From Primulina eburnea (taxonomy: Eukaryota; Streptophyta; Magnoliopsida; Lamiales; Gesneriaceae), in contig NC_133114.1 in the NCBI RefSeq assembly GCF_022965805.1, forward strand, positions 1,758,761-1,822,760: a stretch of DNA of 64,000 bases, written 5' to 3'. Positions 12,957-60,622 of this stretch are shown here, in pieces. Made by a program: the position numbers and the translations under genes. The notes beneath the pieces were generated by a model that had not been told where the DNA came from, searched no databases, and was given only the letters and a program-made list of their open reading frames with translations. Within the stretch, counting starts at the first letter, position 1, and the number at the start of each line of letters is the position of its first letter.

Positions 12957-12990
12957 AGTGGTATCAGAGCAAGGTTTTTCAAAATCTTTT

Positions 12991-14544: not shown

Positions 14545-15698
14545 CGGGAGAAAAGAAGCTGCTACAATCCATTCGACCAAAAGAAAAGGGATCGGTGACC
14601 TTCGGAGACAACAGCAAAGGGATCATAGAAGGCATCGGCTCAATAGGTATATCTAACTCTACTATTATTGATGATGTACTTCTTGTGAAAGGGCTTAAAC
14701 ATAACCTCCTAAGCATTAGTCAATTGTGCGATAGGGGTTATGAAGTCAAATTCACACCACACGATTGCACTGTATCACTCACAACTGACAAAACCATTAG
14801 TTTCAAAGGTTATAGAAGTGAAAATGTTTACAAGGTCGATTTAAAGATTTCATCTTTTTCAAAAATAAAAAGCCTTGTAACATTAAACGTTGATGACAAC
14901 ATTCTTTGGCATAGACGACTTGGTCATGTTGGGATGAGCACCATAGAAAAACTTTTAAAACTTGACCTAGTTTCCGGAATGCCAAAGCTGAATTTAAAAT
15001 TAGATTCTTTTTGTGATGCTTGTCAACTTGGTAAACACACAAAGGAATCTTTCAAAAATAAAAATTTTGTATCCACTTCTATGCCCCTTGAATTACTTCA
15101 CCTAGATTTATGTGGTCCCTCGAGGACAACTAGTCTAGGAGGAAAATCTTATGCTTTTGTCATTGTAGATGATTTTTCACGTTTTACTTGGACATTGTTT
15201 TTAGCCCACAAAAATGATGCCTTTGATCATTTCAAAATTTTTGTCAAAAAGGTTGAAAATGAGAAAAATCTTTTGATCAAACAAATCCGTAGTGACCACG
15301 GAACGGAATTTCAAAATGAAAATTTTTCAATTTTTTGTCAAAGCAAAGGCATTGGTCACAACTTTTCTTGTCCTAGAACTCCTCAACAAAACGGTGTCGT
15401 TGAGAGGAAGAATAGGACCCTAGTAGAGATTGCAAGGACCATGCTATGTGAGCATTCTCTACCAAAATATTTTTGGGCTGAAGCAATGAGTTCTGCTTGT
15501 TACATCATCAATCACGTATCAATAAGGCCAATTCTCAAGAAAACTCCATACGAACTATGGAGAGGGAGAAAGCCTAACATTTCTTACTTCCGCGCTTTTG
15601 GATCAAAATGCTTCATCCACAACAATGGTAAGGACAACCTGGGTAAGTTCGATGCTAAATCGGACAAAGAACTGTTGTTTCTGATGATGATGATATAG
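14500..15698 (+). pseudogene. Copia B protease and integrase (shifted frame, truncated)
   Basis: In the frame of 14541 the protease motif WYLDSGCSRHMTG spans about 14511-14549, upstream of any ATG, so it must once have been read through from gag. The integrase follows: HRRLGHVG and CDACQLGK (zinc-binding part), LHLDLCGP, IRSDHGTEF and GVVERKNRTL (DDE triad). Soon after GKFDAKSDK, near 15670, the usual linker is lost and the frame ends at TAG 15696-15698. The next block resumes in another frame with an acidic DDDDIDI stretch, so a deletion removed the integrase tail. Confidence 0.88.
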
Positions 15699-15715
15699 AT
15701 ATCCTTGGCGAAAAG

Positions 15716-17413
15716 TTGGAGTCCACAAGCCTAGATGATGTTCCTAAAGATCAAGAGGACGCACCTCTTCCGAAGGAGTGGACTACACACAAGGATCATC
15801 CCATGGACCTCATCATTGGTAGCCCATCGAAGGGAGTATCTACTCGCTCTTCTAATATGTGCAATTATCTTGTTTTTCTTTCTCACATAGAGCCTAAGAA
15901 CATAGAAGAAGCTTTACTTGATGATTCTTGGATTATTGCCATGCAAGATGAACTAAATGAATTTAGAAGGAATAAAGTTTGGAATCTTGTACCTAGACCC
16001 ACTGATAGACCTGTCATAGGAACTAAATGGGTATTTAGGAACAAGTTAGATGAGCATGGTACAATCACTAGAAATAAAGCTAGGCTAGTAGCTAAAGGAT
16101 ATAGTCAAGAAGAGGGAATTGATTATGATGAGACTTATGCCCCTGTTGCTAGACTAGAATCCATTCGCATGCTACTTGCTTTTGCTTGCTCTAGAGACTT
16201 TAAATTGTTTCAAATGGATGTTAAAAGTGCTTTTCTTAATGGTGATTTGAAAGAAGAAGTGTATGTTGAGCAACCTATTGGTTTTGAAGATGTGCACTTA
16301 TCTGATTATGTGTATAAACTTGATAAGGCTTTGTATGGTTTGAAACAAGCTCCTAGAGCTTGGTATGAGAAATTATCTACCTTTTTGCTGTCTAATGGTT
16401 TTTGTAGAGGTAAAGTTGATATTACCTTATTTACCTTGACTAAAAATAATGATTTGCTGATAGTACAAATATATGTAGATGATATTATTTTTGGTGCTAC
16501 TAATGAACACTTGTGTAGAGATTTTTCGAAGCTTATGCAGGATCACTTTGAGATGAGCATGATGGGCGAGCTCAACTACTTCCTTGGTCTCCAAATCAAG
16601 CAATGCAAGGATGGTTTCTTTGTCAACCAAGGAAAGTACATCAAGGATATGCTAAAAAAATTTGGGATGGAGTCTTCCAAATCCTCATCCACACCTATGA
16701 GCACGACAGTCAGACTCGACAAAGATGAGGGAGGTAAACCTGTTGACCAAAAGTTATTTCGTAGCATGATTGGCTCCCTACTCTATGCGACTGCTAGTAG
16801 ACCTGACATTATATTTAGTGTTTGCTTGTGTGCACGATTTCAATCATGTCCAAAGGAATCACACTTATTCGCCTTAAAACGCATTTTCAAATATCTTTCA
16901 AATACTCCAAATCTCGGATTATGGTATTCTAAGAACTCATTTTTCGATTTAAAAGCTTACTGTGATGCCGACTTTGGAGGATATAAGGTGGATAGAAAGA
17001 GCACTAGTGGAACTTGTTTCTTTTTGGGAAATTGCTTGGTGTCATGGTTTTCTAAAAAGCAAAACTGTGTTGCACTTTCAACGACCGAGGCCGAGTATAT
17101 GGCTGCCGGTAGTTGTTGTGCACAAATTCTTTGGATGAAGTATCAATTACTCGACTATGGTGTTACTTTTTCAAAAATTCCAATCTTTTGTGATAATACA
17201 AGCACCATATGTCTAACAAAGAATCCAGTTCAACATTCTCGTACTAAACATATTGACATTCGACATCATTTCATTCGTGATCACATTGAGCAAAATGATG
17301 TTGAACTTCACTATGTTGACACCAAGAATCAAATTGCTGATATTTTTACAAAACCACTAGATGAATCTACTTTTACTCGTTTGCGTGGTGAACTTGGCAT
17401 GATTGAGTTGTAA
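15716..17413 (+). CDS. Copia B reverse transcriptase and RNase H
   Basis: Open frame ending TAA at 17411-17413. RVT_2 motifs in order: [58 protein letters not shown], the active-site box [18 protein letters not shown], and [13 protein letters not shown]. RNase H motifs: [41 protein letters not shown] and [13 protein letters not shown]. The frame lies out of phase with integrase because of the deletion near 15670. It has no natural start; translation would need the intact polyprotein. Confidence 0.92.
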
Positions 17414-17894
17414 ACACTAGTCGAATACTCTCGTACATATTTGTTAAATTGAGGGGGAGTATTATTAATGTAAGCATTATAATGACGGATAATACAAATT
17501 AATTGTATTTATCCATAATTATGGCTCAACATTCCATCGAGGCTGAGATGAGGAGACATAGAGAGTCGCGGGATGCGGATTCTTAGATTATGTTTTTTGT
17601 TATTTTTGTTTATTTTATCTTTATGCATCATTGTATAAAAGACTTGCATTTATTAGTGGATATTTTACCTGTTTATTTGTCTCTCTTTATGCTTATGTCT
17701 TTTTGCTTATCACAAAAAGGGGGAGAATTTATTTGGTTAAAATTGCTATTAATTGGTTATTAAATTCGCCTTAATTCAACCTCTTAGACTTGTTATTTGA
17801 TTAAGGGGGAGTTATTTAATAACCATTTCGATTATGTTGATTATTGTTATCTCAATTTTTAACCAAGTTTTGTGATCATCAAAAAGGGGGAGAT
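17414..17894 (+). other. Copia B 3' untranslated region with repeated purine tracts
   Basis: 480 bp without a gene. Four polypurine runs are present (near 17451, 17717, 17804, and the last one abutting the LTR at 17881-17894). The last is the probable plus-strand primer; the others resemble it. Confidence 0.7.
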
Positions 17895-19044: not shown

Positions 19045-19049
19045 GAAGC

Positions 19050-20734
19050 CAAGTGAGGAGATACAAGCTCCTAGAAGAACCGAGAGAGTCTCGAGACCAC
19101 CTGTGAGGTATGGTCTGCTTCTTGAAGAGGGCCTTGATGAGCCTAACCTTGGATGTGATCCAAGGACCTTCAAGGAAGCGTTATCGGATGCCGATTCATC
19201 CAAGTGGCTTGAAGCAATGGAATCTGAGATGAATTCCATGCATTCGAACCAAGTGTGGAATCTCGTGGATCCACCTGAGGGAATTGTTCCCATAGGGTGT
19301 AAATGGATTTACAAGAGGAAACTTGGGGCGGATGGGAAGGTATTGACCTTCAAGGCGCGATTGGTAGCAAAAGGGTATACTCAAAGGCAAGGTGTTGACT
19401 ATGAGGAAACCTTTTCTCCAGTTGCGATGTTCAAGTCCATTAGGATATTGCTAGCCATAGCTGCATGGTATGACTATGAGATATGGCAGATGGATGTTAA
19501 GACAGCCTTCCTTAATGGGGATATTAAGGAAGAGATTTACATGTCTCAACCTGAGGGTTTCACATCTATCGGAAGTGAGCATATGGTATGCAAACTTCAA
19601 AGATCTATTTATGGTCTTAAGCAGGCATCGAGGAGTTGGAACCTCAGATTCGATAGTACAATCAAAGAGTTTGGTTTTACTAAGAATCCTGAGGAACCCT
19701 GTGTGTATAAGAAGGTCAGTGGGAGTGCTGTGACATTCCTAGTTCTTTATGTTGATGACATTCTACTCATTGGGAATGATGTAGGAATGTTGCAATCAAC
19801 AAAGATATGGTTAGCAAGTAAGTTCTCAATGCAGGACTTGGGTGAAGCATCTTTTGTATTGGGAATACAGATCTATAGAGATAGATCAAAAAGATTGCTT
19901 GGTCTCACCCAGTCCACGTACATTGATACCATCGTGAAGCGGTTCTCGATGGATGAGTCCAAGAGAGGACATCTACCAATGTGTCATGGCGTGTCCCTAT
20001 CCAAGTCTATGTCTCCCAAGACTGATGCAGAGATAGCGGCGATGACACGAATTCCGTATGCTTCGGCTATTGGTAGTATCATGTATGGGATGATATCTAC
20101 ACGTCCTGACGTGGCATTTGCACTAAGTGTAGTGAGTAGATATCAATCCAACCCTGGTCTTCCACACTGGAAAGCTGTGAAAGACATCCTCAAGTATTTG
20201 AGAAGGACCAATAAGTTGTTTTTGGTCTATGGGGGTGGAGAACTAAAATTGGAAGGCTATACCGACTCTAGCTTCCAAAGCGATGTTGATGACTCGAAGT
20301 CAACCTCCGGATTCATATTCATGCTCAATGGTGGTGCTGTCTCTTGGAAGAGTTCCAAGCAAGACAGTACAGCGGATTCCACCACTGAGGCAGAATACAT
20401 TGCTGCATCGGCTGCAGCAAAGGAGGCTGTTTGGATTAGGAATTTCGTCCAAGAGTTGGGCGTCATTCCAAATGGAGTTGCTCCTATCCCGGTGATGTGC
20501 GACAACACGGGAGCCATAGCTCAGGCGAAGGAGCCAAGGTCTCATCAGAAGTCCAAACATGTATTGAGAAAGTACCACATCCTCAGAGAGATCGTGGAAC
20601 GAGGAGAAGTGTCGATCGACAAAGTCGGCTCCGCAGATAATGTTGCTGATCCACTAACCAAGCCTTTACCAGGACCATCATTCGAGAAGCATCGCGAATC
20701 AATGGGTCTAAAGTATATGGGTAGTTGGCTCTAG
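19050..20734 (+). CDS. Copia A reverse transcriptase and RNase H (3' part of pol)
   Basis: This is the second half of the Copia A polyprotein. Dropping Copia B plus one GAAGC duplication joins base 11806 to 19050 in the same frame, which shows the insertion hit an otherwise open pol. Seen in order: the NQVWNLV and GCKWIYKRK start of RVT_2, [34 protein letters not shown], the catalytic YVDDILL box, GSIMYGMISTRPD, and the RNase H part with SKSTSGFIFML, ADSTTEAEYIAAS and KHVLRKYHILRE. TAG ends the frame at 20732-20734, just before the purine tract. As it stands it has no start of its own. Confidence 0.93.
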
Positions 20735-38859: not shown

Positions 38860-40920
38860 CCTTCAATTCTCATGACCAAATCCCTAAACAATGTAAATTT
38901 AATTTAATCAAATATAAATTTTGTAAAAAATACCTATTTGATATTTACAACAATCCTTACTTGATGTCCTTGTGATGTAGGAGGAGCCCCAAACGTATAA
39001 GAATGCAAATTCGTTTGAGAAGCTTCAAAAAAATTAGTATAACCTTCCTGCATTTTCATGACCAAATCCCTAAACATCGTAAATTTAATTTAACCAAATA
39101 TAAATTTGTAAAAAATACCTATTTGATATTTACAACAGTCCTTACTTGATGTCCTTGTGATGTAGGAATAGCCCCAAACAGATAAGATGGTAAATTCATT
39201 TGAGAAGCTTCAAAAAAATTAGTATAACCTACCTGTATTTTAAATATCAAAAAATATGTAATACAAATATGCATATAGTTATGGAAAAAAAACTAAGTTA
39301 CCGTTTGACTTGAATATTGCATTTGGTCATTGTGCCCAGAAACAGATGGAAATTGCGGGGATGCAAACTGATTTTGCGATAGTGATTGTATGAAGTTTAT
39401 TTCCCGTGTTTTGTTGCCATCTTCTGAACATTGCCCCTTTTTTTGCTGTTATTTCATGTAGCACGTTCAAACCAATATAAACATCAACTAGTAGATAAAG
39501 TGTATAATATGATCATGTAGATGAATAAAATGAATTGCATACAAATATTTACTTAAGATTTCAGCTTTTCCTTTCCTTTTACCTTTTTCCTTTTTTGCTC
39601 GTATGATCCCAGTGTCGTGTAATATTTGCATTTGTAATCCCTTTCGCTTTTGCAGTAAGAGGGTTACGAATGCATACTTTGCCTATTTGATCTTCACTCA
39701 GATCATCATCACACTGCTCGTTTATGCTCAAATTTTGCACAAAGTTAGAGATTTCATCTTTTGCGGTGTCAACCAATGTATATAATGTTTTTCTAGCACA
39801 CTCATAGGGTTTGCTCAATTGACTTAGATCATATACCGATCTCATTATTTGGTTGACAAATTCCATCTGAGATACATGAGCACCACCATCACCACCACCA
39901 CTGCCAGTTTCTTGCAAATCAGTGCTAACTCGACCTTTTATATTCTTCATCCATCTCCTCAAAATATAGCACTTGGGTATAACAGTGAAATCCATGCAAT
40001 TAAACACCATCAAAACATGTTTACACAAAATCCCCATTGTCTCAAACTTACAACAATTGCACTTTATTTCACGACTTTGCTTATTGAACATCACATGCCT
40101 AATCATTGAGTTTTCATAATCAACAGCACATCTATAATCCCTAAAGAAAAAGTTCATTACTCTATCGTCATCATCCAACTGAACATTCCAGTAAAAGTAA
40201 TTCTCCTTATTCGTCTTATCTATAAAATATTTAATAAGCGCAGTGGCATCTCCATTCTCAACTTTTGTATGTTTTTTCAGTCGACTCATATGATCATATG
40301 CATCCTTTCTGATAAAAAAATAAATTTTCAATCCCACATGCTTCATGTTCCATAAAAGAAACAACATTGGAGACAGATATTCCAACATTTACCATGGCTT
40401 CTAAAGTCGATTTTTTTGCATGTGATATATTGCATGCCGATCTTAACAAGTGATTTTGATCAGATGCAAACATTTCATGGTTATGCTCCTCCACAAATCT
40501 ACTCACCCGCCATTCACTTTCTTTTTCCCTTGTGATCTTCAATTTCGCTTTACAGTTAGTTCTAGTGATCAACTTTTGATAAACTAGAATCTTTTTACTA
40601 GAATTTCTTTCGTCTTTTGAACCTTCACATGAACAGATAATTTCTTTGGACTGAAGTTCATTAGTATGAGAAAAACATCGTTGGTCACCCTTCCTCACAC
40701 TAAAACCTTTGGCATGTGCATATTGACAATACAATAAATAAGCATCTTCTACACTATTCACAACCGTACCCACTAGTAGTTTACTCTTCAAAACATCAAC
40801 AACCGAATTTTCATTTTGTACCTCGAAGTTTTCAACCACATGTTGTTCAATTTGCTCGTCATCTTCTTGATCGTAGTTTCCGTCCAACTCCTCAAGTGAA
40901 ATTGGCTTGTTATCTTCCAT
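38860..40920 (-). pseudogene. FAR1-related (FRS/FHY3-type) gene lacking the MULE transposase core, frameshifted
   Basis: FAR1/FHY3 proteins are transcription factors domesticated from Mutator-like transposases, with an N-terminal FAR1 zinc-finger, a central MULE domain and a SWIM finger. ATG at 40920 (MEDNKPISLEELDG) follows an acceptor TTTTTTCAG. The FAR1 domain is seen as AYLLYCQYAHAKGFSVRKG, RTNCKAKLKI and HNHEMF. A frame change near 40315, in an A/T run, separates GIEN from RKDAYDHMSRLKKH. The SWIM finger is intact (CNCCKFETMGILCKHVL). Between FFFRDYRCAVDYE and NSMIRHVMF roughly 300 residues of MULE core are missing. The coding frame then reads KKGKRKGKAEIL and continues through spliced tail exons with QFASPQFPSVSG (about 39455-39300) and a duplicated exon with YTNFFEASQ. 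Either a pseudogene or a FAR1-SWIM short form. Confidence 0.8.
38871..39242 (-). repeat. Tandem duplication of a FAR1-gene tail exon (186-bp period)
   Basis: CATGACCAAATCCCTAAACA starts at 38871 and again at 39057. Each unit holds one exon: YTNFFEASQTNLHSYTFGA then PPTSQGHQ in the lower unit, and YTNFFEASQMNLPSYLFGA then IPTSQGHQ in the upper. Both have GTAAGG donors and TTTAG acceptors. Confidence 0.8.
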
Positions 40921-41963
40921 ATTCCAACTATGCAATCTGAAAAAACAAAAGAAAATAAAAAATAATGAATAATACCAATTATTTATACAACAAACGATTT
41001 CAATAAAACAACACATTGCAACCACTTCTATAAAATCATCTACTACATCTTCTCAATGCCTTAAATATGCAATCCCAAAATAGAAATAATTTATTCACTG
41101 ATTCCAGTCACAGACACTTCTTAGTTTACTTTTATACAAAATATATAGTCAAATTTTGAAGTTTGAGTATTTAAAAAAATATTCATAGCCGACTTCCCTT
41201 TTTATATGCACAAAGAAGCGTAAACAATATACAATCACAAAGAAGCGTAAACAAAAAAAAATCACTTTGATGGCGAATCGGAATGCCATGAACATTAATC
41301 TGTAAAAAAACTCACCTTTAAAAGAAGCTGACGTCGTAACCGGTGGGAGGGATATGGCGGCAAACGATGGATGCTTTTAGAGGAGACAAACGTTGAGGGA
41401 GAAATGTCTGGGAACGAGGAAGAAGTGTCCGTAAAAATTGTCGCCCACTCCTTGTAGGAATTCTCGCACACTCCTTGTAAAAAAACCCACCTTTAAAGGA
41501 AGTTGATGTCCCAATTTTTAACAATTGAGCAACGTTGGAGGTGTCAACTAATCTTTGCCAGGAGACTTCCGTTGAGGAAGAAGTGTCATGGAGGTGTACA
41601 TTTTGGGTATTAAGGAGGTGAAAGACGGAAGAAGAACACAAGAGAAACAGGGTAGTCTACACTTCCAAAATAAAAGATGTACGTGGGAAGTGAAATTTTG
41701 AATTATTGGGCCAAACCCTAACCATAGTTATGACTTTTGTAATATATTTATCTTTTTTGGTTATTTTTTGTTTAAAAATAAAAAGGAAGAAAAATTCCAC
41801 GTGACACAATTTGAGTGGATTCAGGCAGTGCCTGTTGATGCACAATCGAATTAACCCTGCCTGAACCTAGCCAAGAGTAATAAAATCACAAATGATAAAG
41901 TGGTCCGGAAAGCATTTAAGTTGGGAATTCGGTAAAGCATTTCCAAAATATAAATAATGTAGG
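40921..41963. other. Upstream of the FAR1-related gene
   Basis: 40921-41030 is likely leader intron; 41300-41640 could be a leader exon. Contains the direct repeats ACAAAGAAGCGTAAACAA (near 41211 and 41237) and ACTCCTTGTA(G/A). No protein recognised. Confidence 0.35.
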
Positions 41964-47127: not shown

Positions 47128-49961
47128 ATGATCAATAATGATGGAAAGCCGACATCTCAAGCCGAAAAATATAGGACAGTTCCCATGGCGATAATGTTAC
47201 TGGTACTATGTGGATTTTCATTCTATCTTGGCGGAATCTTTTGTTCGGAAAAGGATGTTTATTTAACTCAGACGATCAATAAAGCCGTCACGTCGAAGGA
47301 AACCACTCCAGGTCATCTTCAGATCAAAGCCATAGCATTTCCTGAATGCACCGTAGATTATCAGGATTACACACCATGTACCGATCCAATGGTATTTTAT
47401 ACATCCATCTCATGTTTTTAAGGTTATACTCTCGCTGTGCATGTTTACTATGTTGCCTTAAGAGTAGTTGCAATGCCAGAAGGAGGGCTGGTTGGCCCGT
47501 TCTCCACCCTTCCCTGATATACATTCCTATAGACTTATATATTATTTTATGTGTTATCTATAAACAAAAATATTATTTCGCCTCAACTATGTTTTGAGTT
47601 TCAGTTTCTCCAAATCACTCTTTTGGCTCCGCTACTGCTAAGAATCTGTAATAAGATTTCTATTTACGATGCTGCTGCAGAAGTGGAATAAGTACAGTCG
47701 CAACAGGCTTTCTTTTCTTGAACGCCATTGCCCTCCATTGTTCGAAAACAAAGAATGTTTAGTACCGCCACCCAACGGTTATAAGTCTCCTATCAGATGG
47801 CCAAAGAGTAGAGATGAATGTTGGTACAGGTAATGAGGATAAAGAAAATTATTTTGAAGCAATCTGAGGGTTTTTGTGAAAACTTGCAGATTCAATGTTT
47901 TCTCGTGTCAGGAATGTTCCTTATGACTGGATTAACAGACAAAAATCAGATCAGCATTGGCTGAGGAAAGAAGGGGAAAAGTTTATATTCCCTGGCGGTG
48001 GCACTATGTTCCCACATGGTGTCGGCCAGTATATAGATTTGATGCAAGATCTGATTCCAGAAATGAAAGATGGTATAATCCGGACTGCCATTGATACTGG
48101 ATGTGGGGTGAGTCTATTTACTCTTCTTCCCTGGTTTCTCAAGCTAGTTGAGTAGACTGTGCAAGTTCGTCTTCTGCAAGTTAGTTTTTTGAAATTGAAG
48201 TTTTGTGTGTGAAATTCAGTTATCTTTACGAATTTAGGTTGCAAGTTGGGGAGGTGGTTTGCTCGATCAGGGGATTCTTACCATTTCTCTCGCTCCGAGA
48301 GATAATCATGAAGCCCAAGTTCAGTTTGCTCTGGAACGTGGGATACCCGCAATTCTAGGCATCATTTCGACCCAACGGCTTCCTTTCCCTTCAAACTCCT
48401 TCGACATGGCACATTGCTCTAGATGCCTTATTCCATGGACGGAATTTGGTAGTTGTCCTTATCTCGTGACACATGCTTGTTCTCCAAGCGTTTCATGAAA
48501 AATATCTGCAAATTTCGTTGGATCGTACCATGTCATAGAATTTAGAACTCAAATTTTACCTAGATCTAAAATCATTTTTCAGGTGGAGTTTACCTTCTTG
48601 AGATGCATCGTATAATCCGCCCTGGGGGTTTCTGGGTACTCTCTGGCCCCCCAGTGAACTACGAGCGTCGCTGGAGGGGATGGAACACAACCATAGAAGA
48701 GCAGAAATCTGAATACGAAAAGTTGCAAGAACTGTTAACGTCAATATGCTTCAAATTATATAACAAAAAGGATGACATTGCCGTTTGGCAAAAACTATCC
48801 AATGATAGCTGTTACAAAAAGCTTGACGACCCGGACTACTACCCTCCGAAATGTGATGATGGTACTGAACCAGATTCGGCATGGTACACACCAATTCGAC
48901 CTTGTGTCATTGCTCCTAATCCGAAGTACACGAAACTTTCATTAAACTCTCTCGACAAATGGCCTGAAAGATTGCATACTGCTCCAGAGCGCTATTCTGA
49001 TGTTCGAGGTAGCAAAAGCAGTGCTTTCAAGCGAGATGATAGAAAATGGAAGACAAGGGTAAAACACTACAAGAAGTTACTCCCTGAAATTGGAACTGAC
49101 AAAATAAGAAATGTCATGGATATGAATACTGTGTTCGGCGGTTTTGCTGCTGTTCTGATAGATGCTCCTTTGTGGGTCATGAATGTTGTCTCTTCATATG
49201 CTCCTAATACGCTTGCTGCGGTTTATGACAGGGGACTTGTAGGATCCTATCATGATTGGTAATATTTCTTGGACTCAAAAATGTTGCAAAACCGATTGGG
49301 GTATATATTCTCAGAACTCATATTCAAGACGTAAAGTAAATATATTATGTTTTGAGGGACTTTGAAACTATTACACATCATACTTATAGTATATATGTTA
49401 GATGCTACTTTTCTAAAAGTTCAATTTAATGGGAGAATCTGCACGTCCAACGATAGTTTTATACTTAAATGTCAAACACGTCATATTGTCTATTTAACAT
49501 ATGTAGTCGAACGCTGTTGATTCATTTGTCATGTTTCTTTAGGTGTGAAGCATTCTCCACATATCCTCGAACATACGATCTCCTTCATTTAGATGGTCTT
49601 TTCACTGCTGAGTCTCACAGGTAAATCGCCATCCTCGGCTATACTTGCTCGATAAAACCATGACAAGCTACTCTTTCCATCAGCTTATACTTGTAGAAAC
49701 TATACTAGAATAGCAGTGATTCAACTGATGTATTACGGCAGATGTGAAATGAAGTATGTGCTATTAGAGATGGACCGAATACTACGGCCAAAAGGTTATG
49801 TGATTATTCGGGAATCGAGCTACTTCATAGATGCTGTCGCCACTATCGCGAAGGGTATGAGATGGGATTGTCATGGAGAAGAAACAGAACATGCTATCAA
49901 GACTGAGAAACTATTGATTTGCCAGAAAAAACTGTGGTACTCCTCTGAGCAGAGTTCATAG
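47128..49961 (+). CDS. PMT: Probable Golgi methyltransferase, PMT15/PMT16 type (QUA2/DUF248 family)
   Basis: Seven coding exons: 47128-47391, 47681-47829, 47912-48107, 48238-48448, 48583-49258, 49543-49620, 49742-49961. They total 1,794 bp, 597 residues, with GT/AG borders and matching phases. Family members are type II Golgi proteins thought to methylate pectin. A short cytosolic tail precedes one membrane span ([20 protein letters not shown]). The first methyltransferase half has the SAM-binding motif [13 protein letters not shown] and the hallmark CSRCLIPW; also [16 protein letters not shown] near the N-terminus and RHCPP. The second half has [23 protein letters not shown]-like [15 protein letters not shown] and [12 protein letters not shown], ending in [11 protein letters not shown] and [17 protein letters not shown]. 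Length is slightly below the about 630 of Arabidopsis PMT15. All expected blocks are present, so the gene looks functional. Confidence 0.95.
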
Positions 49962-50427: not shown

Positions 50428-51207
50428 AACCTTTAAAAATTGATTACGAGTGGCTTAGTGTGTAAGTAAAGCACAAATAACTCAGAAGAGTGCACAAGGA
50501 AAATATGTTTGAATATAGTATGTTGAATTATAAATGAGATCCTACTTTTGAATATCTCTAATGTGATATACATTCGTGAGACATTCGTTTCATATTTTTT
50601 TAAAAAAAGTAATATTTTTGTTATAAAAATGTTTTTTTTATATATCTTTTCGAGTTGAATATTTGTCTCACAATATTGATCTATAAAACGGTCTCATAAG
50701 GTTTTTTTTTTTGCTTGTGTATATATATAAGTTGCTTCCATGAATCATCAGCGGAGATATAATGATAGGGCTTGGTAGATACTATCTATATGAATAATGA
50801 TTGCATCCACTCAACACATGACACGCATGCTGAAGGAGGATGAATCATGACCGTTTACCCATACATCGTGGTTGAATGAATGATCATGATATATCTACTT
50901 AGTACATATATTATGTTTTAAATAGATAAAAACTCTATCATATGGGTAACATGGACAAAACCGACATAAGCCCACATAACATCTAATTAAATACAAATAT
51001 TTATTTTTTCAATCCCTATCCTAGACAAGCAGATATAGATTTCCTCAATCGAAATGGTCCCTATCCACCAATAAAATGCAGTCAAAAGGGAGTCTTGGAT
51101 GGACAAAAGCTTGGTCAAAACCCATTTAATTTCAACCATTAATTTCAAAATGCGATGAGAATTTATATGTTTAAGGTAGTTTCCCATTCCCATAATTTGT
51201 TTTCGAA
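50428..51207. other. Upstream region of the first syntaxin-like gene
   Basis: AT-rich. 50491-50560 matches the sequence downstream of the second syntaxin-like gene (about 60690-60760), and 51120-51207 matches 59455-59546 upstream of it. A decayed GAGACATT/GTCTCACAAT patch lies at 50575-50700. Confidence 0.5.
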
Positions 51208-51232
51208 TCCTCTTCACGCTGCGTGAAGAGGA
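51208..51232. promoter_or_regulatory. 25-bp perfect inverted repeat upstream of syntaxin-like gene 1
   Basis: Arms TCCTCTTCACGC and GCGTGAAGAGGA with one central T. It ends 100 bp before the ATG and recurs unchanged at 59547-59571 before gene 2. It could be a binding site for a dimeric factor or a leader hairpin. Confidence 0.7.
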
Positions 51233-51332
51233 CGACGACGGTGGAGACTCCTCAGATAAACTGGAGGCTGAGATTAAAAAAAAATCTTCCTAATTCATTT
51301 CCCATAATCTTCCCATTGGAAGTTCACCAAAA

Positions 51333-52277
51333 ATGAACAATTCGTTGAATGGCTCCTTCAAGATTTCCGTGGAAGAGAGCAACGAGAATGGAAACCTGAA
51401 CAGAGACGTCGAGTCGGGCCGTGGGAATGACCCCTATACGATCGAGAGGTTCACAAATGATGTGGATAACGTGAAGGAGGACATCAAGATTGTGGAGAAT
51501 ATCTACTACAGTCTCAAAGAATCCCAGGAAAACATCAAAACAGCGCGTGCTGCGAAAATCATGAAAGATCAGCGGAGCCGGATGAACATGGATCTCGATT
51601 ACCTTCTCAAGCTAGCCAAACAAATCAACAAGAAATTCGACGCACTTGTTCGGGCCAATGCTGCTCTGAGGAAGCTGCCCGGAAGCGGGCCAACTTCCAA
51701 GGACGATATCTCTCGGGGCTCCATGATCACCGAGCTGGGTGAGAGCCTGAAGCTCATCATGCGAAACTTCCAGACGCTCAGATCCCAAATGGAAATCGAA
51801 CAGAAACAAGTGATTGAGGGAAGATACTTTGCAATTACTGGAGAGAAAGCAACGGAAGATGCCATCGATCATTTGATTTTAAGCGAAGGATCGGACAATT
51901 CTCTCCTCCAAGCCATGCAAGAACAGGGGAGAGGTGTTGTACTGGACGCTGTGCTGGAGATTCAGGAAAGGCGTGATGCAATGAGAGAGATCCGGAAGAG
52001 CTTGATGAGTCTGCACCAAATATTATTGGGCATCGCTGCGCCAGTGGAGGTGCCAAGTGGCAGCGATGTTGGCGTCGGTGGCCCACCGAGCCCCGTGGAA
52101 AACATCATGCCGGCGGCTCCAGTGCCGCCTGCAGCTAAAGGACACTTGAACGATTACGAGAGAGAGACAAGAAGGCAGGCATACACCGCCATTGCCGTAT
52201 CATTTGTTGTCACCATAGCTCTCACCGTGGCGCTTCTGATAACAGAGCGTAATCTGTACACCATGAAAATGAAATAA
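51333..52277 (+). CDS. Syntaxin-like (SYP1-type) protein with truncated Qa-SNARE motif, copy 1
   Basis: Single exon, 314 residues. Plant SYP1 syntaxins are plasma-membrane Qa-SNAREs of about 300 residues. The N-terminal Habc bundle is recognisable (FTNDVDNVKEDIKIVENIY, AKIMKDQRSRMNMDLDYLLK, GRYFAITGEKATED). The helix AMQEQGRGVVLD...EIQERRDAMREIRKSLMSL starts a normal SNARE motif. It stops at HQILLGIAAPVE, exactly where canonical syntaxins read MAVLVEAQGE; the ionic-layer Gln and all later layers are absent. A Gly/Pro/Ala/Ser linker of about 45 residues follows (residues about 235-275), then DYERETRRQAYTA, a membrane span (IAVSFVVTIALTVALLI) and a short tail NLYTMKMK. No downstream exon restoring the motif was found. 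By eye about 90% identical to copy 2. It may act as an inhibitory or non-fusogenic SNARE; that is inference. Confidence 0.88.
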   Translation: MNNSLNGSFKISVEESNENGNLNRDVESGRGNDPYTIERFTNDVDNVKEDIKIVENIYYSLKESQENIKTARAAKIMKDQRSRMNMDLDYLLKLAKQINKKFDALVRANAALRKLPGSGPTSKDDISRGSMITELGESLKLIMRNFQTLRSQMEIEQKQVIEGRYFAITGEKATEDAIDHLILSEGSDNSLLQAMQEQGRGVVLDAVLEIQERRDAMREIRKSLMSLHQILLGIAAPVEVPSGSDVGVGGPPSPVENIMPAAPVPPAAKGHLNDYERETRRQAYTAIAVSFVVTIALTVALLITERNLYTMKMK

Positions 52278-52596
52278 CTTCCGCACATCAATATAAGCAG
52301 GAACTTCTTTGTAAAATAAAAAATTGCACTTTTCTGGTGCATCAACCTAAAAGTTATGAATATAATTACAATAATTATTACATATTTATTATTACCTTAA
52401 GGATAATTTATTCATAGAATATATTTAAATAGTAGATAACAAGATATCCAGCTTAAATCTATAATTTCGTTAACATCATATTTTCGAGTGTCATCTCTCT
52501 AGGTGGTCCGAAAACTATATAAATAAATTTATCTTCGTTGAGTGATTCGAATCATTCAAGAGCATTGAGTTCTTTATGTCTATACACTTTTGTTAG
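52278..52596. other. Syntaxin-like gene 1 3' flank
   Basis: 3' untranslated start (AACTTCCGCACATCAATATAA) is shared with copy 2; AATAAA-like at 52315. Otherwise AT-rich, no gene. Confidence 0.5.
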
Positions 52597-53547
52597 CACT
52601 ACAACAACATATGCATTCAACCACACTCAAAAGACAACGGTTTTTTTTAAAAACCGTTGTCTTTTGCTTTTTAACAACGGTTTTAGTGAAAACCGTTGTT
52701 AAAAAGCAGCAAATGACAACGGTTTTTACAAAACCGTTGTCGTTGACCCTCAAAAACACGCTAAAAGACAACGGTTTTTTAAAAACCGTTGTCTTTTAGC
52801 GTGTTTTTGGGGTCAAAGACAACGGTTTATAAAACTGTTGTCTATAAGCGTGTTTTTGAGGACAAAAGACAACGGTTTTTGTGAACTGTTGTGGATTAGC
52901 GTGTTTTTTCAGAGAAACGACAACGGTTTTCGTGAACCGTTGTGGATTAGCGTTTTTTTTTTGGGAAAGGACAACGGTTTTCGTGAACCGTAGTGGATTA
53001 GCGTTTTTTTTTGGGAAACGACAACGATTTTCGTGAACCGTTGTGGATTAGCATTTTTTTTTGGGAAACGACAACGGTTTTCGTGAACCGTTGTGGATTA
53101 ACGTTTTTTTTAGGGAAAAGACAACGGTTTTCGTGAACTGTTGTGGATTAGCGTGTTTTTGCGGAGAAATTACAACGGTTTTAGAGAGCCGTTGTTAAAA
53201 ATAGCGACAGTTTAAACAAAAAACCGTCGCTATTAGCGACGGGTTTACTAAAACCGTCACAAAGTTTAATATAGCGACAATTATAAACCGTCGGTAATTT
53301 TAAATCGACGACGGTTTTAGAAAATTCCGTCGCCGATTTAAAATAGCGACAGGTTTTTGAAAACCGTCGTCGATTCAAAACTAGCGACGGTGTTGTAAAC
53401 TGTCGTCGATTTAAACGTAGCGACGGTTTTATAATTTGTCGATAAATTAAAATTTGGTCATTATTCTGTTTTTAACTTTTTTAACAGTTGTTGAGTGTCT
53501 ACGACAACGGATTTTATCCGTTGTCGTTTATCATTTTTCTTGTAGTG
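52597..53547. mobile_element. CACTA-like non-autonomous element with hairpin arrays, copy 1
   Basis: Starts CACTACAACAA and ends TTTCTTGTAGTG, the inverted termini of CACTA (En/Spm) elements. The 951 bp hold about a dozen back-to-back copies of ACAACGGTTTT / AAAACCGTTGT, then a shorter set of GCGACGGTTT / AAACCGTCGC. Such subterminal repeats bind transposase in known CACTA elements. No transposase is encoded. I could not see a 3-bp target duplication. Confidence 0.8.
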
Positions 53548-53599
53548 GATTTTTCATAAAACCAATGAATACTTGGTTAAAAATTTCCTCAAGTATTAA

Positions 53600-54400
53600 A
53601 AAATCATTTTCAGAACATTGAATCGATGGTACGATTTTATGTTTGTTCTTTATGAAATTCGGAATTCCATGGATATGGAGGTTACAACCAGAATATCCTT
53701 GCTTATAGAGGGTTAGTTCACAAAATTTTGGGACAAATTATTAAGAGAAGACCCTGATCAGGAAAGCTCTATGGATCCAAAATTCTTCAACATATGGAAG
53801 AAAAAATTTCTTTATATCAGAAAGATTTTAATAAACAACAAGAAAAAAGAGCAGGATTCAATGAGTCCTTTCAAGCTTCTTACTCCGAAATATTCTGATA
53901 TTTATTCTAAAAAAAAGATGATTGAAGTCTACATTGAAAAACTGAAGAAAGATCTTTATATGAACATTGCATGTTCTGCCTCCAAATCAGATAAATCTAT
54001 GGTATCCGAATCAAGTGAAAACCAATTTATCCATCTAATACAGATGCAAAATGCTCAAGACCCAAAGGAAGATATTCCTTCCCATATTAGTGATATTTTT
54101 GAAAATTATATAAATTCATTAAAAGAAAATATTAAAGATGATTAGGATATTCATCTTTAATAAAGTTGGTGGAATATCACTATAGACTTTTTGACTTTTG
54201 TAACCATGTTACTATTTTCTTTTATAAAGCATTGTATTATTTATATTTTTAGTTGGAATCCTAGGTTTGATGTCTGGCTCTTCCATCTATTTATAGGCTG
54301 TATTGTGTTTTTAGAAGAATACGGTCAAGTTTGCTCCCCTCTATTTCCTCTCTGTAAACAACCCTTCTTACGAATTAAATAAAAGCTTCAAGTTTTGAAT
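53600..54400 (+). pseudogene. Possible endogenous pararetrovirus (caulimovirid) relic
   Basis: 53660-53760 contains broken coding sequence (a PWIWR...YPCL-like phrase interrupted by stops). It is followed by an open frame at 53771-54145 rich in Lys, Ser and Glu with an acidic C-terminal end (SLKENIKDD). About 150 bp further lie a TATA-like CTATTTATAGG (54287-54297), a CT-rich stretch with TTTCCTCTCTGTAA (54346-54359), and AATAAAAGCTTC (54378-54389). The layout (end of a polyprotein, intergenic promoter, polyadenylation signal close to the start of transcription) is that of caulimovirid genomes integrated in plant DNA. No reverse transcriptase or capsid motif is visible, so this is a suspicion. 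It is broken and not functional. Confidence 0.33.
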
Positions 54401-55168
54401 ACAACTTTGTAAGTTTTTTTTATTTATTTTGTTTTTATTTACTGTTTTATTTTTATATTTCAAGAGAATAGCCTGAATGACGGGCTAAACTACTCGTGTT
54501 AAATCATAACCTTACTATGACATGATCTATATTTATTTGTAGCTTGGAGAACAATTGAGATAATAATAAATTTATTTGAATTTGGGAATTTAATGTAATA
54601 TAAGGGTTCTTGGTTAAAACATAAGGTAAAAAGATGAACCGGAAAATAGTAAACACAAGGTACGAGTAACCATGAATGTTGCTGGATAAGGAATCGCCAT
54701 TTTGGAATCCAACTCTGTAAGTACGAAAATAGGTTTTTAATGGGCTTTCTATGTGTGGATTATATGCCAGGGATGAAATGACAGGGGAAGGTTTTGATGC
54801 ATAAATGTTGATGAGTTTGAGGAGATCGAGGCCGATGATGACAAAAGATTGCAGTATATACGTATTTTTTGTTTGGAAAATGTTGATATTGTGGGACTCT
54901 ACTACCACATTGCCACGTTGATGACGAACATGTATCAAGGTCAATTGCAATACTAAATTCAAATTTGTAAAATTTTTGTTTATCGTTGGCATATTTTGGA
55001 AGATGGATTTTGAACATAACATAGTCACGGATTTAACGTGGTAAATATTTTGTTTTCGATTGTTATTTTTGGTTTAATTATTATTATATATATTATAAAT
55101 TAAAAGAAATTTAATACAAAAATTTTACCTAATGAAAAAAATTATTAAAGACAACAGTTTTGGATTCT
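54401..55168. other. AT-rich spacer
   Basis: No gene recognised; a 174-codon minus-strand frame (54504-55028) has no recognisable motif. Confidence 0.3.
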
Positions 55169-56118
55169 CACTACAAGAAAAATGGTAAACGACATTTGTA
55201 TAAATTTGACAACTATTTAGCGACGATTTTTTCTTTAACCGTCGCTAAAAGTAGCGACGGTTTTATTTAAACTGTCGCGGATTTATAATTTTGCGACGGT
55301 TTAATCTACACCGTCGCTAAATTTAGCGACAGTTAAAAAAACATGGCGCATGTTTCAAAATAGCGACGGATTTACCAAACCCGTTGCTAAAGTTGGCGAC
55401 CGTTAAATAAAAACCGTCGCAACATTTAGCGACAGTTTAGATTTAACCGTCGCCGATTTATAATTTCGCGACGGTTTAACTAAAACCGTTGCCATTTTCA
55501 AAAAATTCCTTCCCCCCTAAACTTCCCCTCATTTTCTTTCACCACTCTCTATAAATACATGCAAATTTGCTTCAATTTCTTCCACTTCACTTCACAACAA
55601 TGAAAATTTTTCTCACTTACACGATTTTACAACTTCACAACACTTCAATTTTTATCTCTTCACGATTTTACAACTTCACAACACTTAAAATTTTTATATC
55701 TTACACGATTTTACCACTTTACAACACCTAAAATTTTTATCTCTTACACGATTTTTTTACCACTTCAAAACGATTAAAATATTTATCTCTTACACGATTT
55801 TATCACTTCACGACTTTTAAATTTTTTATCTCTTACACGATTGTATCAATTGAAAACACAGATTTATTAAATTCTTAATGTTTTTTTTATTTTACCTAAA
55901 ATATTAGCGACGGAATATTGAAACCGTCGCTAAATAGAGACAGTTTTTCACATGAATACCGTCGCTAAATGTAGCGACGGTAAAAAGTAAACCGTTGCTA
56001 AATTTAGCGACGGGATTTTGAACTGTCGCTAATTAGCGACGCAAATTGTAGTTTCGACAACACTTTTTATTTTGCGACGATTTTAAAAACCGTCGTAAAT
56101 TGTAGCTACGACAACAGT

Positions 56119-56980
56119 TGATGTGAATCTTGACACGAATAAATAGCAAACACGATTAAAAATAAATCGCACCCTCTATTCAATTACGATATTAAGATCC
56201 GTGCCCGATCTTTTGGTTCAAGTATTGTGTGATATTCACCTCTAAACTAGCAAGAGTTTAGCAACAAATAAACTCGAGTATAAACAATCGAAAACTATAC
56301 GAACCTTCGAAGAACTTTGCCTACGACAATCCGCACAAGCAACGATCGACAAACGCCACAAAGTTAAAAACTTTGATAAGTTTGATTTGATTTGACAAAG
56401 CTAAAAGCTTTGAAAAGTTGAGAGAAAATTCTCACAAGTTTGATAAACTCAAAATAATATGTGTATTGTGTGTTAAAATTCGTCCAACATAGTCTATATA
56501 TCAAGAGATATCAAAAATCTAGTCTCCCAAAATAATAAAACTCTAGAAAAGGAAACAAATCCGCGCAGAAAACACTAGGCACGGACCCCGTGCAGACCTC
56601 CGTGTCTGGGTCCGTGTACATACTGTAAAACTCTTCAATCGGGATCAAGGGACACGGACCCCGTGCTCGCCTCCGTGTGCGGGTCCGTGTAGGCACTGTC
56701 TTCGCCAATAACAAAGGGCACGGACCCCGTGCCTGGGTCCGTCGTCGGGTCCGTGTAGGCTCTGTATTTGCTTATCTCCGGATGTAAAGGGCACGGACCC
56801 CGTGTGAAGGTCCGTGTCGAGGTCCGTGAAGACTCGGTTGAGGAGATTAATGCTTGAATCCTATTCCTTTGGCCCTCCAACATTCTTCCATGCATCCCGA
56901 GCCCTCCACCACTTTGCTCCTCGCACGTAAATCCATCTATTTCGCTCATACGCCCGTGCAAGGCTACCATGTTCGCATCA
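56119..56980 (-). mobile_element. Solo LTR nested in the CACTA-like element
   Basis: 862 bp beginning TGATGTGAATC and ending GTTCGCATCA, with the 5-bp duplication ACAGT at 56114-56118 and 56981-56985. No internal region or second LTR is present, so it is the product of LTR-LTR recombination or a single-LTR relic. Strand is uncertain; the minus reading is chosen only because low-complexity open frames lie there. Confidence 0.8.
56579..56836. repeat. Four-unit tandem repeat with GGCACGGACCCCGTGC palindromes
   Basis: Units start at 56579, 56651, 56717 and 56789 (spacing 66-72 bp). Each has the palindrome CACGGACCCCGTG followed by CCGTGT and GGGTCCGTGTAGGC-type blocks. Confidence 0.85.
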
Positions 56981-57280
56981 ACAGTCAAAAACAGTTGTCT
57001 TTGAGCGGACCATTTAACAACACTGACTTTAACAACAGTTTTAAAATAGCTACGACAATGGTTAAAAACAACGGTTTAAAACCCTTGCAAAACCGTTGTC
57101 GTTGCTAGAAATTACAACGGTTTAACACCGTTGCAAAACCGTTATCGTTGATAGAAAAGACAACGGTTTAAAACTGTTATCGTTGAAGACACTTTCAACA
57201 ACACCCTCAGTTACAACAGTTTTAAATGGCCTACGACAACGGATTTTATCCGTTGTGATTTGACGTTTTTGTTGTAGTGT

Positions 57281-57785
57281 AGAGTAGGTGTTCAACAAAC
57301 CAACTTGTGATTTGATCTTTATTGACTCTTATGTTAAAAAATGATCTTTATTGTAATAATATTTTATGATTTTATCTAATTATGACATTTAATTTATCTA
57401 TATACCCAAGTAAGCTGCATAGATAAAATCATTGACTATACAATAAGTACCATGTGGTCCACGAGTCTAGTGTATAATTAAATTCATTATAAAGTTTAAT
57501 GTATATTCTAAATTCGTTTATAGTCGATTCAGCCGCATAAAATAATGATAAAGGTAGCTCGAGCTTGATAATAATATCTGTGATGTAAACGCCACGTTTC
57601 ACTAGTAAGAGCATGTAGATGTCCATTCATGCAGATGTGTGCTAATTTGATGAGGCAATGAACAACTCTCCATTAGAAGTTTCAAGTGGTTATCAATTAT
57701 CGAATGGAAAAGTCCGCAGTTATAGTTGTACACCATTAGTGTGATACCATTGTCTCATATCTTAAAAATTAAAAATTTAAAATGA
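57281..57785 (+). repeat. Diverged, truncated Copia A-type LTR
   Basis: Matches the first 500 bp of the Copia A LTR in order: TAGAGTAGGTG, GATCTTTATT, GCATAGATAAA, GTATATTCTAAA, AGTCGATTCAGCCGC, AGCTCGAG, GCAGAT, TATCGA(A/G)TGGAAAAGTCC. Many substitutions and gaps make this an old relic. Confidence 0.8.
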
Positions 57786-57829
57786 GTTTATACTGAGCTA
57801 CAATGAACTTCTATAACAACTTGGGTTAA

Positions 57830-58510
57830 TAATTTTCGTAAAGCGAGAACGAATACGAAGTAGTTGCTATATGGGCCCATTGTGCAGTCATGCAGGCGCG
57901 GGCTCAGGGCGTGACGGAATGGTATCAGAGCCAGTCACCGGCATGGAACACCGGAAAATAAGTGCTATGCAGGGCAAAGTGCTACGTGCATGGGAGCCAC
58001 CACTTGAACATACGAGGCAAAGTGCTACATGACGGGAGCCACCTCTTGAACATGTAGAAGCCACCTCTAGATTCTCGACGCTGGTGAATCGAGTGGTCAG
58101 GCTGCGACGAGGACGTCGCGTTTTGAAGGAGAGGTGATTGTGATACTGAAACGACCACGACCTTTTTTTATATACATATATACTAATCATAAATCATAAA
58201 CTCGAAAATACTAAATAAAATATCTCACCATTTCTAACCATTATAATAATTTAACAATTTAAATCTCAAGTGCATAAATGCAAAGGTAAATCAAATCTAA
58301 GCGTCGTATGAATGGTTTAAATCATATGACACTCAAAAACATTTTTAATGTCAAAACAAAAAATTTAAAATTTTCACTTTATCTTAAGTACGAGAAAACG
58401 ATACTCAAACAACTTTTTGGGAGGATACACATAAAATAGGTACTTCTCATCAATCAAGATAATAATAAACTGATGCTTTCTTGGGAAATCTCTCACTTGG
58501 AATTTGTTTG
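57830..58510 (+). mobile_element. LTR-retrotransposon remnant: LTR end, primer-binding site, short internal part, LTR start
   Basis: TGGTATCAGAGCC at 57920-57932 is a tRNA-Met primer-binding site after an LTR-like end (GGCTCAGGGCGTGAC). About 200 bp of non-coding internal sequence with a repeated GGCAAAGTGCTAC / GGGAGCCACC(A/T) phrase follows. Then a purine tract (GAAGGAGAGGTGAT) and TGTGATACTGAAACGACC near 58139 mark the start of the other LTR. With so short an interior it would be a miniature or deleted element. Outer boundaries not found. Confidence 0.5.
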
Positions 58511-58765
58511 TTTATCTAGAACATGGAACCAATTTGTCTCTCATTGATTAAATTTGAGACGAAGTTTGAGATTGATGGTTTTTCTCCATGTGAGTTTTTC
58601 ATTGATATCGATCTTTTGTATGATTTTGTAACTTGGGCACATGCACATCTGTTGCATCAACTTCTTATATATATACATTTTTATAATCTGGATACAATAA
58701 GTAGTCTTTATTTTAGAGTATCTTGTAAAATCTTGTAACATATGTCTTCAGAGGTTTAGTCTTAG
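58511..58765. other. Spacer
   Basis: No recognisable gene; short frames on both strands without family features. Confidence 0.3.
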
Positions 58766-58766
58766 T

Positions 58767-58912
58767 CTCCCTCTCCTCCAAGCCATAAAAGAACTGTGGA
58801 GAGGCAATGTTCTGGTTATGGAGATTCATGAAAGGCGTGGTGCAATGAGTGAGATTCGGAAGAGCTTGACTAGTATGCACCAAATATTATCGGTCATGGC
58901 TGCACCAATATA
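58767..58912 (+). pseudogene. Syntaxin-like gene fragment (third copy)
   Basis: Matches the part of the two intact genes that encodes SLLQAMQEQGRG to the truncated SNARE helix (CTCTCCTCCAAGCC, GAGATTCATGAAAGGCG, AGAGCTTGA, CACCAAATATTAT). It has several substitutions and frame breaks and no start. Similarity fades right after GCTGCACCA, the point where the intact copies leave the SNARE motif. Confidence 0.8.
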
Positions 58913-59546
58913 TGAAGGTGTCGAGGGATGTTCATCGGTCGGTTCGATTCGGTTTTCGGTTTTTTATTTCGATTTTTTCGGTTTTCGAAATATATAATCC
59001 GATATCTGAACTATTTTTTTCAGTTTGGTTCAGTTTTCTACCAAAACAATTCGGTTAATATGGAGTGGCTATGCTATGATTAGTTACCCTTTTGTTTGTA
59101 AGAAAAGATTTTCGGGCGGGAAAATAAAAAAAGCCTTATTTTTTATTCAAAATGCTGTTGTAACATTTAGGTAAATTTTTCATTGTGTTGTAACATTGTA
59201 AGGTAATTTATCAAAACAAAAAATTTGAAAAATCCATTTGTTTATGGATCAAATTCATATTAAAAATTATTAAAGCTTAATTAAGACCCTTTTTACTAAA
59301 TAAGACTATTATGGAGTATAACAAGACATACCAACGTTCCAGCATATAATTAGTGGATTGTCGTGGCACACACAATATGTGTGGTCCGTAAAAAAAAAAA
59401 TACAAAACCCGTCTTTTTTTTTTTTTGTGGTCCGTAAAAAGAAAAAAAATTGAGAAGCCATTTAATTTCAATCATCAATTTAAAATGCAGACCAGAATTT
59501 AGTTGTTTATGGTAATTACTTCCTATTCCCATAATTTGTTCTCAAA
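58913..59546. other. Upstream region of syntaxin-like gene 2
   Basis: Contains a TTCGGTTTTCGG-rich low-complexity patch (58940-59060) and, at 59380-59455, two copies of GTGGTCCGTAAAAA with A/T runs. 59455-59546 is shared with the promoter of gene 1. Confidence 0.5.
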
Positions 59547-59571
59547 TCCTCTTCACGCTGCGTGAAGAGGA
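59547..59571. promoter_or_regulatory. 25-bp perfect inverted repeat upstream of syntaxin-like gene 2
   Basis: Identical to 51208-51232: TCCTCTTCACGC, T, GCGTGAAGAGGA. It ends 109 bp before the ATG; the sequence between it and the ATG has diverged by insertions, the repeat has not. Confidence 0.7.
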
Positions 59572-59680
59572 CGCCGGTGGTAAACTGGAGCCTGGCGGGC
59601 TGACATAAAAAAAAATAAATAAATAAAAAAAAAATCTTCCTTCACTGCCCCATAATCATCCCATCGGAAGTTCACCAAAA

Positions 59681-60622
59681 ATGAACAATTCGTTCAATGG
59701 TTCCTTCAAGATTTACGTGGAACAGAGCAACCAACATGGAAACCTCAACAGGGACGTCGAGTCGGGCCGTGGGAACGACCCGCATACGATCGAGAGGTTC
59801 ACAAATGATGTGGATAACGTGAAGGAGGACATCAAGATTGTGGAGAATATATACAACAGTCTCAAAGAATCCCATGAAAACATCAAAACAGCGCGTACTG
59901 CGAAAATCATGAAAGATCTGCGGAGCCGAATGAACATGGATCTCGATTACCTTCTCAAGCTAGCCAAACAAATCAACAAGAAATTCGACGCACTTGTTCG
60001 GGCCAATGCTGCTCTGAGGAAGCTGCCCGGAAGCGGGCCAACTTCCAAGGACGATATCTCTCGGGGCTCAATGATCACCGAGCTGGGTGAGAGCCTGAAG
60101 CTCATCATGCGAAACTTCCAGGCACTCAGGTCTCAAATGGAAATCGAACAGAAACAAGTGATCGAGGGAAGATACTTTTCAATTACTAATGAGAAAGCAA
60201 CGGAAGAAGCCATCGATCATTTGATTTCAAGCCAAGGATCGGACAATTCTCTCCTCCAAGCCATGCAAGAACAGGGGAGAGGTGTTGTTCTGGACGTCTT
60301 GGTGGAGATTCATGAAAGGCGTGATGCAATGAGAGAGATCCGGAAGAGCTTGATGAGTCTGCACCAAATATTATTGGGCATCGCTGCACCAGTGGAGATA
60401 CCGAGTGGCAGCGGCGGCGGCGGGGGCCCACCAAGCCCCGTGGAGAACTTCATGCCAGCTGCTCCGGCGCCTCTTGCGGTTAAAGGACATGTGAACGATT
60501 ACGAGAGAGAGACAAGAAGGCAGGCATACACCGCCATTGCCGTATCATTTGCGGTCACCATAGCTCTCACCGTGGCGCTTCTGATAACAGAGCGTAATCT
60601 GTACACCATGAAAATGAAATAA
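59681..60622 (+). CDS. Syntaxin-like (SYP1-type) protein with truncated Qa-SNARE motif, copy 2
   Basis: Single exon, 313 residues, intact. Domain order equals copy 1: Habc bundle, start of the SNARE helix (EIHERRDAMREIRKSLMSL), break at HQILLGIAAPVE, a Gly-rich linker (PSGSGGGGGPPSPVENF), DYERETRRQ, a membrane span (IAVSFAVTIALTVALLI) and tail NLYTMKMK. Differences from copy 1 cluster in the first 80 residues, around 185-215 and in the linker; the middle (about 81-160) and C-terminal anchor are almost unchanged. That pattern suggests constraint on both the Habc bundle and the new anchor. The gene lies 7.4 kb downstream of copy 1 in the same orientation, so it is a tandem duplicate. Confidence 0.88.
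   Translation: MNNSFNGSFKIYVEQSNQHGNLNRDVESGRGNDPHTIERFTNDVDNVKEDIKIVENIYNSLKESHENIKTARTAKIMKDLRSRMNMDLDYLLKLAKQINKKFDALVRANAALRKLPGSGPTSKDDISRGSMITELGESLKLIMRNFQALRSQMEIEQKQVIEGRYFSITNEKATEEAIDHLISSQGSDNSLLQAMQEQGRGVVLDVLVEIHERRDAMREIRKSLMSLHQILLGIAAPVEIPSGSGGGGGPPSPVENFMPAAPAPLAVKGHVNDYERETRRQAYTAIAVSFAVTIALTVALLITERNLYTMKMK

Follow-up and report, generated by a model that had tools for sequence, protein, structure and literature searches.

In a Qa-SNARE whose SNARE motif lacks layer 0 and the layers C-terminal to it, zippering should stay incomplete. The i-SNAREs SYP21, SYP51, and SYP52 of plants are complete, ordinary SNAREs, and syntaxin splice forms that have no membrane anchor exist. 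One account states that these i-SNAREs inhibit when abundant and names soluble dominant-negative syntaxin fragments (PMC3627133); in another, SYP124 and SYP125 of Arabidopsis are linked to tip growth of the pollen tube (PMC8865848). The window analyzed here, a stretch of 64,000 nucleotides of Primulina eburnea (contig NC_133114.1), contains two tandem, intronless genes, copies A and B, for syntaxins that retain the N-terminal Habc region, the N-terminal half of the SNARE motif (N-half), and a C-terminal anchor, and in which a linker takes the place of the C-terminal half (C-half). The same SNARE-less architecture is found in a single clade of proteins from 18 named genera of Lamiales.

The two genes and what remains of the SNARE motif

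The features of the two genes and of the duplicated unit that holds them are as follows.

51333..52277, + strand: copy A, SNARE-less syntaxin of 314 residues in one exon (open reading frame, ORF; PF00804 at 91 bits, no PF05739)
51435..51836, + strand: copy A, Habc region, residues 35-168 (Pfam match 36-191; AlphaFold2 helices 37-70, 74-113, and 123-169)
51933..52043, + strand: copy A, retained N-half, residues 201-237, layers -7 to -2, with layer -1 the next residue (layer table; predicted helix 200-235; N-half profile in 31/34)
52044..52145, + strand: copy A, Gly/Pro/Ala linker replacing layers 0 to +8, residues 238-271 (C-half profile in 0/34; predicted local distance difference test score below 50 at 239-272)
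52146..52274, + strand: copy A, juxtamembrane motif (NDYERETRRQAY) and tail anchor, residues 272-314 (motif in 33/34; alignment with SNARE-bearing anchors; predicted helix 272-313)
59681..60622, + strand: copy B, SNARE-less syntaxin of 313 residues in one exon (ORF; PF00804 at 93 bits, no PF05739; 90% identical to copy A)
60281..60391, + strand: copy B, retained N-half, residues 201-237 (alignment with copy A)
60392..60490, + strand: copy B, linker, residues 238-270 (alignment with copy A)
60491..60619, + strand: copy B, juxtamembrane motif and tail anchor, residues 271-313 (alignment with copy A)
51119..51332, + strand: upstream stretch of the duplicated unit, common to 59455-59680 (blastn)
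58771..58907, + strand: third, partial copy, of the half-SNARE stretch only (81% over 143 nt to 51901-52043)

The duplicated unit extends from about 0.2 kb upstream of each gene to just beyond its stop codon (51119-52300 and 59455-60645, 90% by blastn), and the coding regions differ by an indel of one codon, with no stop or frameshift; the partial copy fits a relic. Both proteins score far above the PF00804 (Syntaxin) cut-off of 26.7 bits and thus have the Habc domain of SYP1 syntaxins, whereas neither matches PF05739 (SNARE) at E up to 1 in Pfam, a test in which the SNARE-bearing protein P0033 scores 63 bits. Layers are numbered here by the syntaxin-1 scheme. Both copies retain the hydrophobic layers -7 to -1 but have Pro at layer 0 and a different sequence where the C-terminal layers would be. 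When the two are considered together with 32 database relatives, to give the 34 members counted throughout, between 29 and 34 of them have V, I, L, M, or F at any one of layers -7 to -1 and 22 have such a residue at all seven, whereas layer 0 is Gln in only two. Half-SNARE profiles were built from 31 syntaxin-124-type proteins, the C-half being taken from layer 0 onward; the N-half profile matches 31 of the 34 members and the C-half profile none, whereas both profiles match all 37 SYP13-type controls, a set that does not overlap with the 31. An earlier note on this DNA had described an intact tandem pair with Habc and the N-half kept and a break just before layer 0, and these results bear it out. 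Since the complete motif with a layer-0 Gln that characterizes a functional plasma-membrane Qa-SNARE was looked for and is absent, copies A and B do not belong among such proteins.

Gly, Pro, Ala, Ser, and Asn together make up 57-73% of the first 30 linker residues in the seven members measured; the figures for two proteins that bear the SNARE domain are 30 and 33%. Pfam at E up to 10 finds no known domain in the C-terminal 82 (copy A) or 81 (copy B) residues. Both linkers contain a Ser-Pro pair (GGPPSPVE, at about 52085-52100 and 60430-60445), and SP is present beyond residue 200 in 27 of the 34 members; it could be a candidate site of proline-directed phosphorylation. In one relative from Andrographis, P0185, the letters ESQ still stand at layer 0, ahead of a Gly-rich linker, and are perhaps the trace of an ancestral or intermediate state.

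A C-terminal membrane anchor is indicated in both copies by a hydrophobic segment that aligns with the anchors of SNARE-bearing proteins and, in copy A, by the predicted helix 272-313. Between linker and membrane span, 33 of the 34 members have the motif E[TM]R[KRN][QR][AS]Y. This juxtamembrane stretch is the best conserved, with a mean identity of 0.82 within the family and 0.18 against SNARE-bearing proteins; the corresponding values within the family (19 representatives) are 0.75 for the N-half, 0.62 for Habc, 0.50 for the span, 0.33 for the N-terminal tail, and 0.29 for the linker. The motif is newly fixed in the SNARE-less family. The anchor itself, which the earlier note had called new, is probably inherited, because the alignment of YEKETRK...IAI in SNARE-less proteins with YxKxxRK...IAI in SNARE-bearing ones, and a similar spacing from layer 0 to the anchor, 41-42 residues in the window copies and 39 in each of two proteins with a SNARE domain, are what derivation from the old anchor would give. 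A wholly new anchor is rejected on these grounds, although a juxta-transmembrane profile is passed at E<0.01 by only 11 of the 34 SNARE-less proteins.

Family, descent, selection, and surroundings

With copy A as the query, 78 proteins were retrieved, 46 with PF05739 and 32 without it, and a profile search added one full-length SNARE-less protein (P0185) and nine fragments. Among the resulting 33 SNARE-less relatives, one (P0050) is a gene model without the middle of the protein, including the half-SNARE. The 29 that carry an organism name are all from Lamiales and represent 18 genera (Dorcoceras, Henckelia, Buddleja, Rehmannia, Paulownia, Handroanthus, Phtheirospermum, Penstemon, Sesamum, Striga, Orobanche, Castilleja, Phlomoides, Erythranthe, Perilla, Salvia, Genlisea, and Andrographis), presumably of about 12 families. 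No Lamiales are named among the SNARE-bearing matches of the copy A search. With a SNARE-bearing query, no name from Lamiales or other lamiids was placed among the best 120 of 2226 matches (E<=1e-60), and no Oleaceae are named among the SNARE-less matches of the copy A and profile searches; neither result is evidence of absence.

A maximum-likelihood tree of 59 rows joins all 34 SNARE-less ones in a single clade (100/100), apart from SYP13-type proteins and beside those of syntaxin-124 type, an assignment that rests on best matches, database names, and this limited tree, whose rows exclude SYP121/122/123 and SYP111/112. A tree from Habc to layer -2 only also has a single SNARE-less clade beside the syntaxin-124-type proteins; therefore, the altered segment does not drive the grouping. 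The window copies group with Dorcoceras and Henckelia (100/100), a position that by itself makes Gesneriaceae the most likely source of the DNA. The SNARE-less stem is long (0.68 in the Habc to layer -2 tree) and the median node-to-tip distance is 0.47, compared with 0.16 in the SNARE-bearing group, indicating faster evolution. Several database records call SNARE-less proteins plain "syntaxin-124" or "syntaxin-125-like."

The architecture, its single origin, and its retention in 18 named genera are firmly established. A restriction of the protein to one tandem pair in a single genome is thus not supported. The picture of an anchored Qa-SNARE derivative that is intact, specific to a lineage, and expected not to finish a four-helix bundle is supported. 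Because the same altered protein is present in many Lamiales relatives, none of them with a broken frame as far as protein records show, it is probably a kept, regulatory, non-fusing syntaxin rather than the product of a broken gene. No report of it was found in the open literature, subscription papers and preprints being outside the scope of the search, and as far as these searches reach the family is unreported. Syntaxins are usually judged by their SNARE motif, and surveys demanding PF05739 would miss it.

The divergence between copies A and B (nonsynonymous, dN, 0.044; synonymous, dS, 0.153; dN/dS 0.29, bootstrap 0.17-0.49) is not near neutrality and shows that these two copies are under purifying selection. 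With this ratio and open frames, they do not have the character of pseudogenes. However, dS is uneven, being 0.033 in the anchor and 0.68 in the linker, and the per-domain ratios have wide bounds; for both reasons, these ratios should not be over-read. The anchor is indeed nearly identical in the two copies, as the earlier note observed, but this was rejected as proof of selection, since synonymous divergence is also low there. An identical run of 140 nt between the copies suggests gene conversion (permutation p 0.001), but third positions alone do not (p 0.11); patchy conversion is thus possible at most.

Fragments from other members of the family bear on gene structure. In eight of the nine, the sequence breaks off or departs from the others at the equivalent of window residue 164 or a few residues away from it, and the ninth, P0189, begins there and reads the half-SNARE, linker, and anchor in one frame; the clustering of these ends therefore suggests an intron in other Lamiales lineages, at a place upstream of the half-SNARE. 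Three full-length proteins that cross this junction, P0021, P0022, and P0027, come from contigs of 1352, 1421, and 1078 nt and look like spliced complementary DNA (cDNA). A hidden C-half exon in the window was considered and rejected: apart from copies A and B and the partial copy, nothing above chance level was matched by tblastn with SNARE-bearing proteins and their C-halves (E up to 10).

Between the two genes, at 52597-57279, are CACTA-type transposon-like termini (CACTACAACAA... and ...TTGTTGTAGTG) with TAG on both sides and a second, inner pair at 53547 and 55169, so that this stretch is possibly a CACTA-like element or nested ones. Within it lie imperfect direct repeat arrays of about 50 nt (52802-53203, rich in CAACGGTTTT-type palindromic units) and 43 nt (55582-55885). 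Further features noted in the window are the following.

9733..11865, 14541..15698, 15716..17413, and 19103..20734: domain blocks of at least two sets of Copia-type long terminal repeat retrotransposon genes (9733-20734; gag, integrase, and reverse transcriptase domains)
39579..41025, - strand: pair of overlapping ORFs that look like a FAR1/MULE-type transposase relic (SWIM zinc finger in one of them)
48603..49262: putative S-adenosylmethionine-dependent methyltransferase fragment (positions 205-417 of the 506 in the Pfam profile Methyltransf_29), probably a single exon from a gene that extends further

Possible functions of the SNARE-less proteins

The reading that we put forward tentatively, as a possibility rather than a probability, is of a syntaxin tethered to the membrane and always closed, which occupies SM (Sec1/Munc18) proteins and damps or times SYP12-type secretion. 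The Lamiales family arose once, probably from a syntaxin-124-type plasma-membrane Qa-SNARE, and layers 0 to +8 were swapped for a flexible Pro/Gly/Ala linker, the N-terminal tail, Habc, N-half, and tail anchor being retained. The half-SNARE helix is predicted to fold back on Habc as in closed syntaxin-1, and the protein, which would not itself drive fusion, may occupy SM proteins of the SEC11/KEULE class and perhaps early SNARE partners, with the outcome that SYP12-type secretion would be damped or timed. In the AlphaFold2 model of copy A, the helix 200-235 packs on Habc in a closed-syntaxin arrangement, so that the N-half is predicted to keep this fold; if so, SM protein binding is at least as likely as half-zippering. 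Phe is present at the N-terminal place matching Phe9 of SYP121 in 26 of the 34 members, and two of the eight exceptions are models that start late. The earlier suggestion of a decoy or inhibitory Qa-SNARE is supported in so far as it describes a non-zippering derivative; the role as decoy or inhibitor is what we infer.

Several points weigh against this reading. At position 11 the Arg of SYP121 is replaced by Ile or Val, so that F9xRF is not fully kept, and the named Salvia members do not have the N-terminal Phe. The layer positions of the half-SNARE are conserved no better than the non-layer positions (entropy 0.69 and 0.67 bits). The closed fold is known from modeling only, and a control, in which the arrangement is absent, gave a weaker model (predicted template modeling score 0.47). 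In published work, Munc18-1 template complexes are insensitive to changes only beyond layer +3; because the SNARE-less protein stops at layer -1, it may bind SM proteins weakly. The pair R20R21, essential for SEC11 binding by SYP121, is described as unique to SYP121. Plant SM-syntaxin contacts, moreover, need not copy those of Munc18-1.

That the protein was recruited after the loss of fusion as a non-SNARE adaptor, binding cargo, a channel, or a tether through its N-tail, Habc, or new juxtamembrane motif, with SM binding incidental or lost, seems to us rather unlikely. The pre-eminent conservation of the juxtamembrane motif (33 of 34 members) would suit such a role, as would the reported binding of K+ channels by the N-terminal F9xRF of SYP121, but the N-half is well conserved too and has the predicted closed arrangement. 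A helper in trans, in which the Habc-containing N-terminal domain would aid SM-templated assembly of another syntaxin and so promote fusion, is distinctly unlikely: it draws on the retention of N-tail, Habc, and anchor and on the finding in PMC6320071 that a syntaxin without its N-terminal domain again formed template complexes when that of syntaxin-1 was supplied in trans, but it leaves the conservation of the N-half unexplained. We consider it highly improbable that these are functionless, decaying paralogues whose frames are open by chance. Their faster evolution, the low conservation of linker and N-tail, the existence of the partial copy (58771-58907), and the few copies per genome among the matches listed speak for decay, but the dN/dS has an upper bootstrap bound of 0.49, the architecture is the same in 18 named genera, and the juxtamembrane motif is invariant or nearly so. 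An annotation or splicing artefact, in which the true transcript restores the SNARE motif, deserves almost no credence even though other Lamiales genes appear to bear introns, because the intron place is upstream of the half-SNARE and P0189 runs through to the anchor in one frame, the window encodes no C-half, and P0021, P0022, and P0027 cross the junction in what look like spliced cDNAs.

A wider extension of the closed-syntaxin reading is doubtful: that a secretory Qa-SNARE of early Lamiales became a dedicated, tethered closed-syntaxin regulator of SM-driven secretion, possibly in pollen, perhaps replacing fusogenic SYP124/125, and thus an order-wide natural counterpart of dominant-negative constructs.

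Comparison with known syntaxin systems

The family is a natural separation-of-function form, which asks what Habc, half-motif, and anchor do without zippering, and it offers a test of SM protein limitation in plant secretion and of closed syntaxin as a regulator in its own right. Its nearest SNARE-bearing relatives by search and tree, the SYP124/SYP125-type proteins, share the start of the N-tail, Habc, the N-half, and the tail anchor; the Lamiales proteins differ in having no layer 0 or C-terminal layers and in having the Gly/Pro/Ala linker and the new juxtamembrane motif. Closed syntaxin-1 bound to Munc18-1 (7xsj, 4jeh, 4jeu, and 3c98) is only 14-16% identical, and syntaxin-1 opens and zippers, whereas the SNARE-less family does not have the residues to complete this process. 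With the i-SNAREs, the likeness would be one of proposed logic only, fusion being lowered through occupancy of partners; in the Lamiales family it is the motif itself that is cut. Dominant-negative fragments and anchor-less forms would, by analogy, likewise compete for SNARE partners, but in those the motif is kept and the anchor lost, whereas in the Lamiales family the anchor is kept and the second half of the motif is lost.

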